A DNA stretch of 64,000 nt from Desulfurobacterium thermolithotrophum DSM 11699. GTDB lineage: Bacteria; Aquificota; Aquificia; Desulfurobacteriales; Desulfurobacteriaceae. A program made the translations under genes and the position numbers. Below, in pieces: positions 38,067 to 43,044 of the stretch. Under the pieces are notes generated by a model. That model was not told the origin of the DNA. It saw only the letters and a program-made list of their open reading frames with translations, and searched no databases. Where the stretch lies: contig NC_015185.1 of NCBI RefSeq assembly GCF_000191045.1, positions 874,501 to 938,500 of the forward strand, in the 5' to 3' direction. Within the stretch, counting starts at the first letter, position 1; the number at the start of each line of letters is the position of its first letter.

Positions 38067-39116
38067 TTAAGTATATTCATTGCTAAGGATATAGGATAGA
38101 GCTTTAGCTACGTTTTCAACAATAGGAATGATTTGGGAATAATCCATCCTTTTGGGGCCAATAATTCCAATTACACCACTATTTCTATAGCCAACTTGGA
38201 ACTTTCCAAGAACAAAGCTAAAAGGTTCAAAAGGCTTTACTTCTGTTTCAGAACCTAATATAACATCAATGTTTTTATTTTTTTCTAGAAATTCAGAAAA
38301 CATTTCTAAAAGAATATTTTTCTCTTCTAAGATTCTTAGAATTTCTTTTAATCTTTCTATATCATCAGCAAGAACATTTACTATATTGGATGTCCCTTGA
38401 AGTTTTAATTGGTTAACTTCATTAAGAGTTGAAAGTATTTGAGAATTAACTTTAAAGGATAAATCTGCAAATTCTTTTCTAACTGTGTCAATTTCCTCTA
38501 CTAATTCTTTTTTTATTTCGGATAAAACTTTTCCTTTAAAACGTTTTGTTAGTTCTCGAGAGAGTCTCGAAAGTTCAGACTCTGCAATTTCGACATCTAT
38601 TACTTTGTGTAGAATATGATCGGGAGAAAAGTTAACTACTACTAAGACTTTTCCGTATGCTACCTTTACAAGAGTTATGTTATTAACGGTTAAGTTTTCA
38701 ACGAGGTTTATACCAAAACCAAGATAACCTGTAGAATTTTGGAGAAAATCAAGAACTGTAGAAAGTATATCTCCTACCTCGTAAACACCTACGGATTTAA
38801 CGTAGTCAAGAAGTCTATTTACTAAGGAGCTGTCCTTTTCTCCTAGTGCTAAGAAGAGATGATTAATGTAGATCTTTAGTCCTTCATCAGTGGGTATTCT
38901 TCCTGCAGATGTGTGGGGTTGATACAAAAATCCCTTATCCTCAAGATCAGCCATCACATTTCTAATGGTAGCTGAGCTTATCCCCATCTGATAAACTTTC
39001 TGAACTGTGCGAGAACCAACAGGTTCTCCCGTTTTTATGTAGAGCTCTGCTACCTTTAAAAGAATATCCCTTTCTCTTTCTGTTAATTCCTGAAAAATGT
39101 TTTCTCTTTCCAACAT
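38067..39116 (-). CDS. hrcA: Heat-inducible transcription repressor HrcA
   Basis: A 349-residue protein with an N-terminal winged helix (LTERERDILLKVAELYIKTG, EPVGSRTVQK, ISSATIRNVMADLEDKGFL) and the HSAGR-like HTSAGRIPTDEG motif, followed by the GAF-like domain. HrcA binds CIRCE operators. I found no CIRCE site immediately upstream, and no grpE or dnaK is adjacent, so autoregulation is not evident here. Confidence 0.93.
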   Translation of the reverse strand: MLERENIFQELTERERDILLKVAELYIKTGEPVGSRTVQKVYQMGISSATIRNVMADLEDKGFLYQPHTSAGRIPTDEGLKIYINHLFLALGEKDSSLVNRLLDYVKSVGVYEVGDILSTVLDFLQNSTGYLGFGINLVENLTVNNITLVKVAYGKVLVVVNFSPDHILHKVIDVEIAESELSRLSRELTKRFKGKVLSEIKKELVEEIDTVRKEFADLSFKVNSQILSTLNEVNQLKLQGTSNIVNVLADDIERLKEILRILEEKNILLEMFSEFLEKNKNIDVILGSETEVKPFEPFSFVLGKFQVGYRNSGVIGIIGPKRMDYSQIIPIVENVAKALSYILSNEYT

Positions 39117-39157
39117 TCCTTCCTTAAACTATTCATTTTTCTTAAGTAAATATAAGA

Positions 39158-39673
39158 CTATGAAAAGTACTTTAAATATTCATCCTTATACGAAACGTAT
39201 CTTTCAGCATGTCTTTTTAAGTCTTTAATTTCTTCTTCTGTTAGACTTCTAACAACCTTTGCAGGAAATCCCATAATTAAACTTCCTGGAGGAAATTCTT
39301 TGTTAGGAGGGACAAGAGTACCTGCTGCAACTATAGAATTTTCGTTTATTATTGCTCCATCAAGTATTATTGCTCCTATGCCCACAAGACAGTTATCTTT
39401 AATAGTACAACCATGAAGCTTTACTGAATGTCCTACAGTAACATAGTTTCCAACAATAGTCGGATGAGTTTTATTTGTAACGTGAACTACACTTCCATCT
39501 TGAATAGAAGTACACTTCCCGATTTTTATGTAGTTAACATCTCCTCTTAGAATTACCCCAAACCAAATACTACTATCGTTTCCTATCTCAACATCTCCGA
39601 TAACCACAGCATTTTCAGCAATGAATACCCTTTCTCCAATCTTCGGTTTCAAGTCCTTAAATGGTTTAATCAA
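39158..39673 (-). CDS. Gamma-carbonic-anhydrase-like hexapeptide protein
   Basis: A 171-residue left-handed beta-helix protein: repeats such as ENAVVIGDVEIGNDSSIWFG and the ligand segments DGSVVHV and TVGHSVKLHGC with three metal-ligand histidine positions. It belongs to the YrdA/CaiE type. TTG start, with GGAGG upstream. Whether it hydrates CO2 cannot be told by eye. It is divergent from the cytochrome gene. Confidence 0.88.
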   Translation of the reverse strand: MIKPFKDLKPKIGERVFIAENAVVIGDVEIGNDSSIWFGVILRGDVNYIKIGKCTSIQDGSVVHVTNKTHPTIVGNYVTVGHSVKLHGCTIKDNCLVGIGAIILDGAIINENSIVAAGTLVPPNKEFPPGSLIMGFPAKVVRSLTEEEIKDLKRHAERYVSYKDEYLKYFS

Positions 39674-39792
39674 CTGTGTTCCTCCAAATGAAACTTTTTC
39701 AAATTATAGCATGCTACGAGTTTTAAAAAAACGAATTGATTTATTCTCTAATATATTTAGAGTTTTTAACATAAACAGAAGTTATAAAGATA

Positions 39793-39820
39793 TTGACAAA
39801 TTTATAAATTTGTTTAAAAT
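39793..39820 (+). promoter_or_regulatory. Cytochrome promoter with 18-nt palindromic operator
   Basis: TTGACA (39793-39798) and TAAAAT (39815-39820) with a 16-nt spacer. The 18-nt perfect palindrome ACAAATTTATAAATTTGT (39796-39813) fills the spacer, so a bound dimer would block RNA polymerase. Predicted start point about 39827; the gene begins at 39867. Operator function is inference. Confidence 0.65.
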
Positions 39821-39866
39821 AGTATTCATAGATTTCCATTAATGAATATTGAGTAAGGAGGGAGTC

Positions 39867-42281
39867 ATGAGAAGAACGTTGGGAATGGCGCTTGCCTTTA
39901 TACTATCGTCTACCTTTAGCGCCATTGCTGCACACCCAGATGTAACTCTTAAAGATCAGTTTGGTAAGCCTGTTTCAGAATCAGGATTACCTGTAGACAT
40001 CAGACAAAGTTGCAGTGCTTGTCACGACATTGATTTCATTGCAACAGCCTACCACTTTCAGCAAGGGAGACTTGCAATTCTTTCCCCCGATATCTATCAA
40101 AAGTACTACGAAAAATACGGTGATACTCAATTTACAAATGGTCTCCCAAAGGAGTTAACAAAGCTTGATATGGGTATGTACGGGAAGCTCTGACCACCTG
40201 CATACCGCCAGTTGGCGCCTCAAGAAGCTACAAATGCTGGACTAGTTGACCTTACAACTCCGGATTATGCAAAGAAATGTGGAATGTGTCACCCTGGTGG
40301 TGGCCCAATGGAAAAAGATAGAGACGACAACTTCCTCCATCAAAAAGCTCTTTCAGAAATTCAAGCAGAGTTTGATGCAGGAAAGATTCCAGGCGATTAT
40401 GCAATATGGAGCTCTACCGAGAAAAAGTTTGTTCCTTTTGAATGGAAAATAAATGTAAATGGACAGGATATCAACAATACAATGGCTCCTACGTGTTTTT
40501 ATTGTCACTCAAAGAAAATAGCCACAGACTGGGATACAGCAGCAACTGGAACTTTAAAGTTTAGAACAACCTTAAACGGTAAAGCTGTTGGAAAACCTTA
40601 CTTTGCTGCAGCAGATGCTGTTGGAGGAGGAATTGCATCTATAAATGCAACTAATTTAACTCTTACATATGTAAATAATGGAACTATTGGAGATAATGAG
40701 ATTGGTAGAGCTACTGATTTCCACTGTGGACACTGTCATGGAGCAAGTGGATTTGAGGATATAAACGGCGATGGCATCAATCCTCTTGACTTTGTGATTC
40801 AAGTTAAAGACCTAAAGTTCATGCATCCAGACTTCATGAAAGAAGCAATGGTTTGGCAGTTTCCAACTGGAAGTAAAAATATAGATGTACACAAAGCTGC
40901 AGGAAAAGGATGTGTTGACTGTCATCAACCTGTTAGTCATGAGTATATCGGAGGTGGTTACTTCCCATCTTCTACAACTTTAATACCTTCTCATGACTTT
41001 GCAAAAGGTAGCTGTGGACCCGCTTTTGGAGTAATGTGGAATCAATTAGGTGGAAGTCTAACCTGTGAAAAATGTCACACAAACCCTGTAGACTTTCACA
41101 CAGCGTACTTTGGTCCTGCTGCAAGTACTCATATAGATAAAGTTGCTTGTACAACATGTCATATTGGTAGAAAGTATTTCTATAGAGTTAAGCTTATAGA
41201 TTGGACACTTCCTATGTTTGTTGTTACAGGAAATGCAAATTCAATTAACTTCTGGGGACTTGACAAGCATGGATATCTCTACGGTGATCCTGTTAATGGT
41301 AAGTATGAAGATATAGCATGGCTTCCAGAAAGGGACTTTGAAACTGGAGAGGTTAAGTGGAAAATTAAGCCAGTAAACGCAATGGGAGTTCTGCTCTTTG
41401 AGGATAACTCTTCAAGAGAGTTTAAGCCTGTGCTTGCAAGGTATCTTGCGAAAGTATTTAAGGTTGATCCAAATCTACCAACTAAGTATATGAAGGTAGA
41501 AATAGATCCTTCTACAGGCAAACCTAAGTATAGTCCTGCAACTACAAATACAGGAGAAACACTTAACATTCTTAACATTCAAGTAGTAAAAGGTGGTGTT
41601 ATAGCCAATGATGAAGATCTAAACAGTGGTAACTTCACTCTCTGGCGAGCAGTTCCTAACTATATAGATGTAGACTTAGACGGTAAGTATACTAAAGGAA
41701 TTGATGTTCAAATTACCGATGATACAGGACTTACCGGAACTACCGACGGTGATCCGGAATTAAATACGAAAGAGGAAGTTGAAGCAGCAATTAACACTCT
41801 CAAGAAAGTTATTACTTCTGCGACTGGGAAAACAGACGTTGAAGTTAAACTCGTTGCAACAACTGACGCTTTTGGAATGAGTCATAACATTAGACCTGCT
41901 AATGAGGCTCTTACTTGTGGTGATTGTCATGGAACAAGAACAACAGGACTAGAGGGAGCTCTCTTTACAAATACAACACCTTTATACTTCCCATATGACG
42001 CCGAAGTTGAGAATGCAACTTACTTTGATAAAGAAATTGATAGAGCTCCAACAGAAGCTTCTTACGCAGAACATATCAAAGTAGAACTTACTGCAGCAGG
42101 ATATGGAACTACTGATAATGGAACAGCTACTACAACTGCTAACGCAACAACTACTACTAATTCTACATCTACAAGTAGTGGAGGTGGATGTTCCATAGCT
42201 CCATCAGCAGGACTGGGCGGAGCAATTTCAGGTCTTCTTGGACTTTTACCACTTGCATTCTTTAGAAGAAAGAAAAAATAA
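39867..42281 (+). CDS. Octaheme c-type cytochrome, probable selenoprotein (in-frame UGA at codon 109)
   Basis: An ATG at 39867 with AAGGAGG opens a frame with a signal peptide (MRRTLGMALAFILSSTFSAIAA). At codon 109 (40191-40193) it meets TGA and then stays open, in the same frame, for 695 more codons. There are eight CXXCH motifs: CSACH before the UGA, then CGMCH, CFYCH, CGHCH, CVDCH, CEKCH, CTTCH and CGDCH. The part after the UGA has no start codon with a ribosome site and no signal peptide, yet its seven hemes need export. It therefore can only be made as a continuation. The C-terminus (GGGCSIAPSAG, a hydrophobic helix, RRKKK) is a sorting or anchor tail. Reads as a selenocysteine insertion (KL-Sec-PPAYRQL). 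A nonsense mutation or UGA read-through is the alternative. Confidence 0.78.
40191..40217 (+). promoter_or_regulatory. Candidate bacterial SECIS (UGA codon plus hairpin)
   Basis: The UGA is 40191-40193. Sixteen nucleotides later a hairpin forms: CGCC (40206-40209), loop AGTT (40210-40213), GGCG (40214-40217). Its loop has a G in the second position. Bacterial SECIS elements require an apical loop about 16-37 nt after the UGA with a G among the first two loop bases, so distance and loop both fit. The stem is only four G-C pairs. A weak outer helix (GCAT 40200-40203 with ATGC 40234-40237) may extend it. Confidence 0.6.
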
Positions 42282-42310
42282 ACAGGAAGATAGCAAGTAG
42301 TATTTAAGAG

Positions 42311-42338
42311 GAGGGGGCAAGAGCCCCCTTTTTTTTAT
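42311..42338 (+). terminator. Rho-independent terminator of the cytochrome gene
   Basis: GGGGGC (42313-42318), loop AAGA, GCCCCC (42323-42328) and eight T residues. A clean intrinsic terminator 30 nt after the cytochrome stop. It isolates this gene as a single-gene transcript. Confidence 0.93.
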
Positions 42339-42375
42339 TTGGTAGAATTCAGCCAAATCTTCAGGAGGATTTCAA

Positions 42376-43044
42376 ATGCCACTTCTTGCTCCTTCTATTC
42401 TTTCAGCAAACTTTGCAAATCTTGAGAGAGATATAAAAGAAGTTGAGCTTGGGGGAGCAGATCTTCTTCATATTGATGTTATGGATGGCAGATTTGTGCC
42501 AAATATAACTATTGGTATTCCGGTGGTTGAATCTATCAAAGATGTAACAAAACTTCCCTTAGATGTTCATCTTATGATAGTTGAACCAGAAAAATATATT
42601 TTAGATTTTGCAAAAGCTGGTGCAGACTGGATATCTTTCCACTTTGAGGCAGCGGTTCATCACCACAGGATAGTTTCAATGATTAAAGAGCTTGATAAAA
42701 AGGCGGGGATAGTCATAAATCCTTCTACTCCTGTTTTTCTTCTTGAGGAAATTCTTCCATTTGTAGATTTTGTTTTGGTTATGTCTGTTAACCCTGGTTT
42801 TGGAGGACAAAAGTTTATAGAAACTTCTGTTGAAAAGATAAAGAAACTGAAAAGAATATGTGAAGAAAAAGGACTTGAAGTAAAAATAGAAGTTGATGGA
42901 GGAATTAAAATAGACAATGTTCAAAGAGTACTCCAAGCAGGAGCTAGTATAGTAGTTGCAGGTTCAGCAGTGTTTAACGGTAATATCAAGGAAAATGTAA
43001 AAAAATTTAAAGAAAAATTTAAAAATTTCTCGGAGGTAAAATGA
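42376..43044 (+). CDS. rpe: Ribulose-phosphate 3-epimerase
   Basis: A 222-residue TIM-barrel enzyme linking ribulose-5-P and xylulose-5-P in pentose metabolism. Seen: [43 protein letters not shown] and [14 protein letters not shown] with metal ligands. AGGAGG before the ATG; overlaps prs by 4 nt, so ribose-5-P supply and PRPP synthesis are coupled. Confidence 0.96.

Follow-up and report, generated by a model that had tools for sequence, protein, structure and literature searches.

Organization of the locus

The window, a stretch of 64,000 nucleotides from Desulfurobacterium thermolithotrophum DSM 11699 (NC_015185.1, positions 874,501 to 938,500, forward strand), contains a gene for an octaheme c-type cytochrome with a UGA codon inside its reading frame (Table 1). 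Translation of positions 39867 to 42281 gives 804 residues with a signal peptide, eight CXXCH motifs starting at residues 49, 138, 210, 287, 349, 400, 428, and 684, and a single internal UGA at codon 109, with one heme motif upstream of it and seven downstream. An earlier note, made from the sequence alone, had claimed one frame holding a signal peptide, the first CXXCH motif, the UGA at codon 109, seven more CXXCH motifs, and a sorting tail, and this held exactly on translation. Its claim that the part after the UGA has no plausible start also held, with an addition: there is an in-frame TTG at 40212, which ORF callers take as a start, but this codon is Leu116 within the hairpin that follows the UGA, and no signal peptide lies behind it.

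At the C terminus, the last 63 residues reached the GlyGly_CTERM cut-off only marginally (16.3 bits against 15.5) and scored 19.1 with MYXO-CTERM, for which the cut-off is 20. The gene has a promoter-like sequence, although the number of such matches in the region around it was not above that of shuffled sequences. The terminator hairpin after the stop codon indicates that the gene is a single-gene unit. Its neighbors are bipA, hrcA, and a hexapeptide transferase gene on the other strand and rpe and prs downstream, and since these are housekeeping genes and the gene stands alone, the surroundings are uninformative on function. No barrel or periplasmic multiheme gene lies beside it, and the criterion for a porin-cytochrome conduit is therefore not met at this locus.

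Table 1. Features of the predicted selenocysteine (Sec) octaheme cytochrome gene, in window positions
Feature	Position	Strand	Basis or remark
Sigma-70-like promoter, TTGACA-16-TAAAAT	39793..39820	+	11 of 12 consensus matches; consensus match only
Shine-Dalgarno, AGGAGGG	39856..39862	+	Sequence; strong; ATG 4 bases downstream
Sec octaheme c-type cytochrome gene	39867..42281	+	804 codons with UGA read through; TAA stop
Signal peptide, residues 1-22 (MRRTLGMALAFILSSTFSAIAA)	39867..39932	+	Sequence; orthologs have analogous N termini
Heme motif 1, CSACH, residues 49-53	40011..40025	+	Invariant in 47 aligned relatives
In-frame UGA, predicted Sec109, motif YGKL-U-PPAYRQLAP	40191..40193	+	Translation and comparison with relatives
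UGA plus hairpin element	40191-40220		Holds CGCCAGTTGGCG
SECIS core TACCGCCAGTTGGCG	40203..40217	+	Same in 60 of 61 collection loci; one-base difference in the remaining locus
Hairpin CGCC-AGUU-GGCG	40206-40217	+	Begins 12 nt past the UGA; loop AGUU, G in apical loop
Heme motif 2, CGMCH	40278..40292	+	Translation, alignment of relatives
Heme motif 3, CFYCH	40494..40508	+	Translation, alignment of relatives
Heme motif 4, CGHCH	40725..40739	+	Translation, alignment of relatives
Lys325, invariant	40839..40841	+	Aligned on Lys153 of 1SP3 (OTR heme-ligand lysine)
Heme motif 5, CVDCH	40911..40925	+	Translation, alignment of relatives
Heme motif 6, CEKCH	41064..41078	+	Translation, alignment of relatives
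Heme motif 7, CTTCH	41148..41162	+	Translation, alignment of relatives
Heme motif 8, CGDCH	41916..41930	+	Translation, alignment of relatives
C-terminal sorting-type tail, GGGCS...GLLGLLPLAFFRRKKK	42180..42278	+	Gly-rich, Cys, hydrophobic, basic
Rho-independent terminator	42306..42335	+	13-pair stem and T run

Conservation of the in-frame UGA

A search of 41 genomes yielded nine orthologs, including the window gene, and all nine have a single internal TGA at a shared codon position. The other eight share 54 to 75% identity with the window protein, and conservation of the protein is strong both ahead of the UGA (identity of 0.79) and past it (0.72). Two deeper paralog classes of the same family, with approximately 1,300 to 1,550 residues, carry a TGA at the homologous site, and one of these long classes is also present in the window genome (G000:C1:347-351 kb). 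The motif U[PA]P[SA]YRQLA is common to the orthologs and both long classes. When genomes were searched with a pattern of TGA plus the hairpin core, 36 places were found in 17 of the 22 Desulfurobacteriaceae genomes, with identical spacing throughout; outside the family, the phylum contributed another 114 genomes, all without a match, and the reversed pattern also gave none. All 36 matches are octaheme cytochrome genes with one heme motif upstream of the UGA and the rest downstream. Five genomes of the family (G002, G008, G013, G016, and G019) have no pattern match despite a SelB over the cut-off.

For more distant relatives, approximately 85,000 species genomes were scanned; the Sec column was masked to keep its codon from influencing which loci were retrieved. 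The codon was TGA in all 61 motif-bearing loci; two loci at contig ends (L123 and L159) have the TGA and the hairpin as well, and two Planctomycetota loci have the TGA followed by a two-residue insertion. Thus, TGA occupied the Sec site in 65 of 65 loci of this collection scan, and a Cys codon (TGC or TGT) in none of them. The hosts that carry the UGA include Desulfurobacteriaceae, Desulfobulbaceae and other Thermodesulfobacteriota, Calditrichota, Planctomycetota, and an Ammonifex thiophilus isolate (Bacillota). Phylum labels of metagenome-assembled genomes were not relied on (Myxococcota for "Deltaproteobacteria", Methylomirabilota for L114); L114 was placed inside a Thermodesulfobacteriota cluster on the tree and may be mis-binned.

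Relatives without Sec form two side lineages, one of Desulfurobacteriaceae with Ser at the site and one of Desulfobacterales-type genomes with Thr or Ile. The Sec label requires two changes on the tree, and two losses of an old Sec would be the simplest history, with the caveat that the root is not fixed. As some members lost Sec without gaining Cys, the octaheme can apparently work without it. The Ser-bearing loci L012, L018, L053, L054, and L055 belong to a sister octaheme class of the Desulfurobacteriaceae, in which the site reads SVPHM-type and the hairpin is gone.

A SECIS-type hairpin behind the UGA

Downstream of the UGA, the 15-base stretch TAYCGCCAGTTGGCG is read as the codons TAC, CGC, CAG, TTG, and GCG, and it is identical in 60 of the 61 motif-bearing loci, with TAT in the other. 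This constancy spans genes with a third-position GC content of 0.34 to 0.99, and the codons TTG and CGC are rare to almost unused in many of the genes that keep the 15-mer. Across the nine orthologs, there are 180 sites with an invariant residue (Met and Trp excluded). The codon, too, is invariant at just nine of them, seven being residues 108, 109, and 113 to 117. Folding of the alignment recovered the hairpin; one pair shows a compensatory change (C-G to U-A), and there is almost no variation with which to assess covariation. A GCC-AGUU-GGC hairpin is retained in the Planctomycetota, shifted by the insertion, and the hairpin is absent from the Sec-less class C genes.

Compared with shuffled sequences, the stability of the window hairpin was not significant (z of 0.40), and Rfam gave no match on positions 39000 to 43000, there being no ready SECIS family. 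The case for a SECIS therefore rests on conservation. What is shown is a constraint at the level of bases behind the UGA, of the kind expected of a SECIS-type hairpin.

Selenocysteine machinery of the host

The window genome has a tRNA-Sec (80 bits, anticodon UCA), and its SelB (443 bits), SelA (637 bits), and SelD (373 bits) all score over the curated cut-offs. Its SelD gene carries an in-frame UGA of its own (G000:C1:1530198-1531124), as does its FdhA gene (G000:C1:1333532-1335229), in which a GGUCU-loop hairpin lies at a similar distance past the UGA. SelB exceeded the cut-off in 20 of 22 Desulfurobacteriaceae genomes and in 18 of 20 genomes of far relatives, while in the remaining two a contig end truncates the match. 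Within the window, UGA is the ordinary stop codon for 8 of 41 long ORFs.

The earlier note had called the protein a probable selenoprotein, proposing as checks the residue at codon 109 in homologues and the presence of selA, selB, selC, and selD, and naming a sequencing error at 40191 as a possible refutation. The proposal is supported, with every testable genomic criterion met. In homologues, the UGA is kept and no Cys was found, and the sole other residues are Ser, Thr, or Ile in the two lineages lacking the UGA; all of the sel genes are present in the window genome; and both chance and a sequencing error are excluded by the recurrence of the UGA in nine orthologs and in far relatives. We therefore regard incorporation of Sec in the cell as very likely, as an inference without protein-level proof.

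Fold, heme ligands, and family placement

By sequence profiles, the protein is not readily placed. Pfam returned only generic cytochrome matches, NCBIfam has no model dedicated to the family, and neither the ExtKL model NF040886 nor the GSU2204 family CXXCH protein model NF041027 matched at an E value of 0.001. The model of the octaheme tetrathionate reductase (OTR) family, TIGR04315, gave 41, 25, 31, and 23 bits for the proteins tested, against a cut-off of 375, and a plasmid collection gave no match. A profile search of PDB sequences returned a flavocytochrome (E value of 0.018) that was rejected as heme-motif noise, leaving no convincing PDB match by sequence.

An AlphaFold2 model of the window protein (pLDDT of 81.6, pTM of 0.82) was then compared with the PDB using Foldseek, and OTR of Shewanella oneidensis (1SP3) was the sole match below an E value of 0.001 (4.3e-06). 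A separate model of a Calditrichota member again matched 1SP3 alone (3.4e-04). The TM-scores to 1SP3 were low (0.38 and 0.31), as expected for heme-less models, and are not decisive. In hhalign, the family aligned with TIGR04315 members over hemes 4 to 7 with a probability of 99.5% (E value of 2e-23), with Lys on Lys: Lys325 is paired with the Lys in VKHGDLD, a residue that counting on the 1SP3 chain numbers as Lys153. A lysine serves as a heme ligand in OTR (PMC12285233), and this ligand is reported to be Lys153 (Mowat et al. 2004). Conserved His residues outside the CXXCH motifs (His63, 342, 376, 411, 422, and 673) come in the same order as those of TIGR04315 members. The segments N[AST][YF]C, KRGD, and DVH are retained in several intermediate octahemes near TIGR04315; this backs the pairing of the lysines but provides no bridge to the UPP motif. 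The fold is thus that of a distant relative of the Shewanella octaheme tetrathionate reductase; the kinship and the Lys alignment are shown, and ligation of a heme by Lys325 is inferred from that alignment.

Sec109 and Cys64 of OTR both lie in the interval from heme 1 to heme 2, but alignment, masked or unmasked, did not establish an equivalence at the level of residues. In 247 genomes, 20 of 49 TIGR04315 matches over the cut-off contain one in-frame TGA. In the four such genes that were read (L180, L183, L184, and L188), the TGA lies past heme 1 and before heme 2, in the motif NNFU or NSFU; other members of TIGR04315 have NNFC in that slot, the Cys being Cys64 of 1SP3. These observations indicate that the Sec slot is common to both branches of the superfamily. 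Hairpins with a 7-pair stem follow the TGA in the same four genes.

Gene context of relatives

In Thermodesulfobacteriota-type relatives, a barrel-like protein of approximately 470 residues and a 12-heme cytochrome of approximately 300 residues precede the Sec octaheme. This order recurs at L114:2255-8716, L109, L111, L117, L120, L124, L136, and L150, with the barrel-like gene not in every locus. In the window genome itself, a cluster (L170:2685-12049) encodes a barrel-like protein of 418 aa, two 7-heme proteins, a 6-heme protein, a cytochrome b561-type protein, a 3-heme protein, and a 28-heme protein of 1,025 aa, and is convergent with the second Sec octaheme gene (paralog). This cluster might be an extracellular electron transfer conduit, which it resembles. 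The neighbors of the relatives and of the paralog speak for extracellular electron delivery. Pfam found nothing in the barrel-like proteins, which were assigned from context and inspection of the sequence only. Near the paralog, two ORFs of 324 and 326 aa (L170:1624-2598, minus strand, and L171:8920-9900, plus strand) have near-identical beginnings and possibly represent a repeated mobile gene.

Proposed role and alternative explanations

The explanation that best fits these observations, and that we hold to be very likely, is an exported octaheme cytochrome with an OTR-type core in which the UGA at codon 109 would be read as Sec by SelB and tRNA-Sec, steered by the CGCC-AGUU-GGCG hairpin just 3' of it. 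The exported protein would have eight hemes attached, with Lys325 where OTR has its heme-ligand lysine, and the sorting tail would retain it at the outer surface, a location that is inferred and that we consider likely. Electrons would pass via a bis-His heme chain to a Lys-type active-site heme. There, Sec109, which lies in the segment linking hemes 1 and 2 (the segment of Cys64 in OTR), would act on the substrate through its selenolate. The earlier note had guessed that Sec ligates a heme or serves as a redox relay; the OTR-like core favors an active-site role over a generic relay. Such a catalytic role is inferred, and the evidence tips towards it only slightly. The bond attacked would most likely be a sulfur-sulfur bond, of the polysulfide, S0, thiosulfate, or tetrathionate type, which fits OTR, the electron acceptors of the species, and hosts such as Ammonifex and Desulfobulbaceae. 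D. thermolithotrophum is a thermophilic vent bacterium whose H2-based respiration uses sulfur, thiosulfate, sulfite, and polysulfides as acceptors (PMC3368423). The protein is best read as a surface reductase; that its substrate is a sulfur compound is likewise inferred, and we put this forward tentatively, as falling just short of a reading we would favor. A bolder version can only be called possible: a deep, Sec-obligate family of surface octahemes, with a selenolate beside a Lys-ligated heme that breaks S-S bonds, would be the unidentified terminal sulfur or polysulfide reductase of the Desulfurobacteriaceae.

The most serious alternative, which remains possible, is that Sec109 is an axial ligand or tuner of a heme and not a nucleophile, the protein being a plain extracellular conduit of electrons to minerals, S0, or other cells. 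The six His residues outside CXXCH and Lys325 make seven candidates for the further ligands of eight hemes, one short, and hemes with His/Cys ligation are known in TsdA (PMC5146829). The operons of far relatives, with their barrel-like protein and 12-heme cytochrome, also recall porin-cytochrome conduits. However, OTR, the sole solved relative found, is regarded as catalytic, its family retains a Cys or Sec in the interval from heme 1 to heme 2, and the Ser, Thr, or Ile that stand in place of Sec in two lineages are poor heme ligands.

Alternatives that concern decoding fare worse. UGA might be decoded by insertion of Trp or Arg, or passed by leaky readthrough, rather than as Sec; readthrough of UGA by near-cognate tRNAs exists, and protein data are lacking for the window protein. 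We consider this very unlikely, given that UGA is a normal stop in the window, that the hairpin is fixed at the base level, that SelB and tRNA-Sec occur along with the gene, and that no homolog of the collection scan has a sense-coded Trp or Arg at the motif. A pseudogene, a sequencing error, or two separate proteins could also be invoked, as standard ORF calling splits the gene at the UGA and the genome paper gives 34 pseudogenes (PMC3368423). This is all but excluded: the identical UGA is found in dozens of genomes from independent assemblies, the protein is conserved on either side of it, and the part after it would hold seven c-type heme sites with no signal peptide.

Relation to known systems

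Sec cytochromes were already known in kind, and the profile scores show that the window family is neither ExtKL nor within TIGR04315. The remark in the earlier note that Sec-containing multiheme cytochromes occur in metal reducers proved correct: ExtKL of Geobacter was proposed as one in 2007, when its authors found no SECIS (PMC1914089). ExtKL (NF040886; PMC1914089, PMC5877670) is likewise a multiheme c-type cytochrome with an in-frame UGA, in clusters of the extracellular electron transfer type, whereas it has five hemes, all upstream of the UGA, against one before and seven after in the window family, and there is no profile match. A 2026 review (PMC13188914) lists, without discussion, ExtKL, GSU2204, and one Sec octaheme of TIGR04315 (WP_331457571.1, GenBank annotation). 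The last is therefore a previously listed Sec octaheme of the OTR superfamily, but under TIGR04315, outside whose cut-off the window family falls. None of the literature searched describes a Sec octaheme from Aquificota.

With OTR, the window family shares eight CXXCH motifs, the order of the further conserved His residues, the Lys of a (V/M)K..DVH segment that follows heme 4 and precedes heme 5, and the presence of just one Cys or Sec in the interval from heme 1 to heme 2, where some TIGR04315 members have Sec. It differs in its low score (23 to 41 bits), in the spacing of hemes 1 to 3, in length (800 to 1,500 residues against about 500 for OTR), in the surface sorting tail of the Desulfurobacteriaceae members, and in having UPP[SA]YRQLA in place of NNFU, with no Cys forms seen. 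TsdA, a thiosulfate dehydrogenase/tetrathionate reductase, also combines c-type heme, S-S chemistry, and a chalcogen residue at the active heme (a Cys ligand; PMC5146829), but it is a diheme protein of another family without Sec.

Selenium is hereby tied to heme-based, probably extracellular respiration, for which ExtKL and the listed OTR-type case were the only previous examples; the cells probably use it for driving electrons onto an extracellular acceptor. The pathway of sulfur reduction in vent Aquificota has been stated to be unclear (PMC5441870), and the window family offers a concrete candidate for this step. The fixed 15-mer is a very sharp SECIS for studying what the SelB of thermophiles reads. 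The window family is also an addition to the known selenoprotein families, one that is uncurated, occurs in several phyla, and lacks a Cys counterpart, and whose genes ordinary ORF calling cuts in half.
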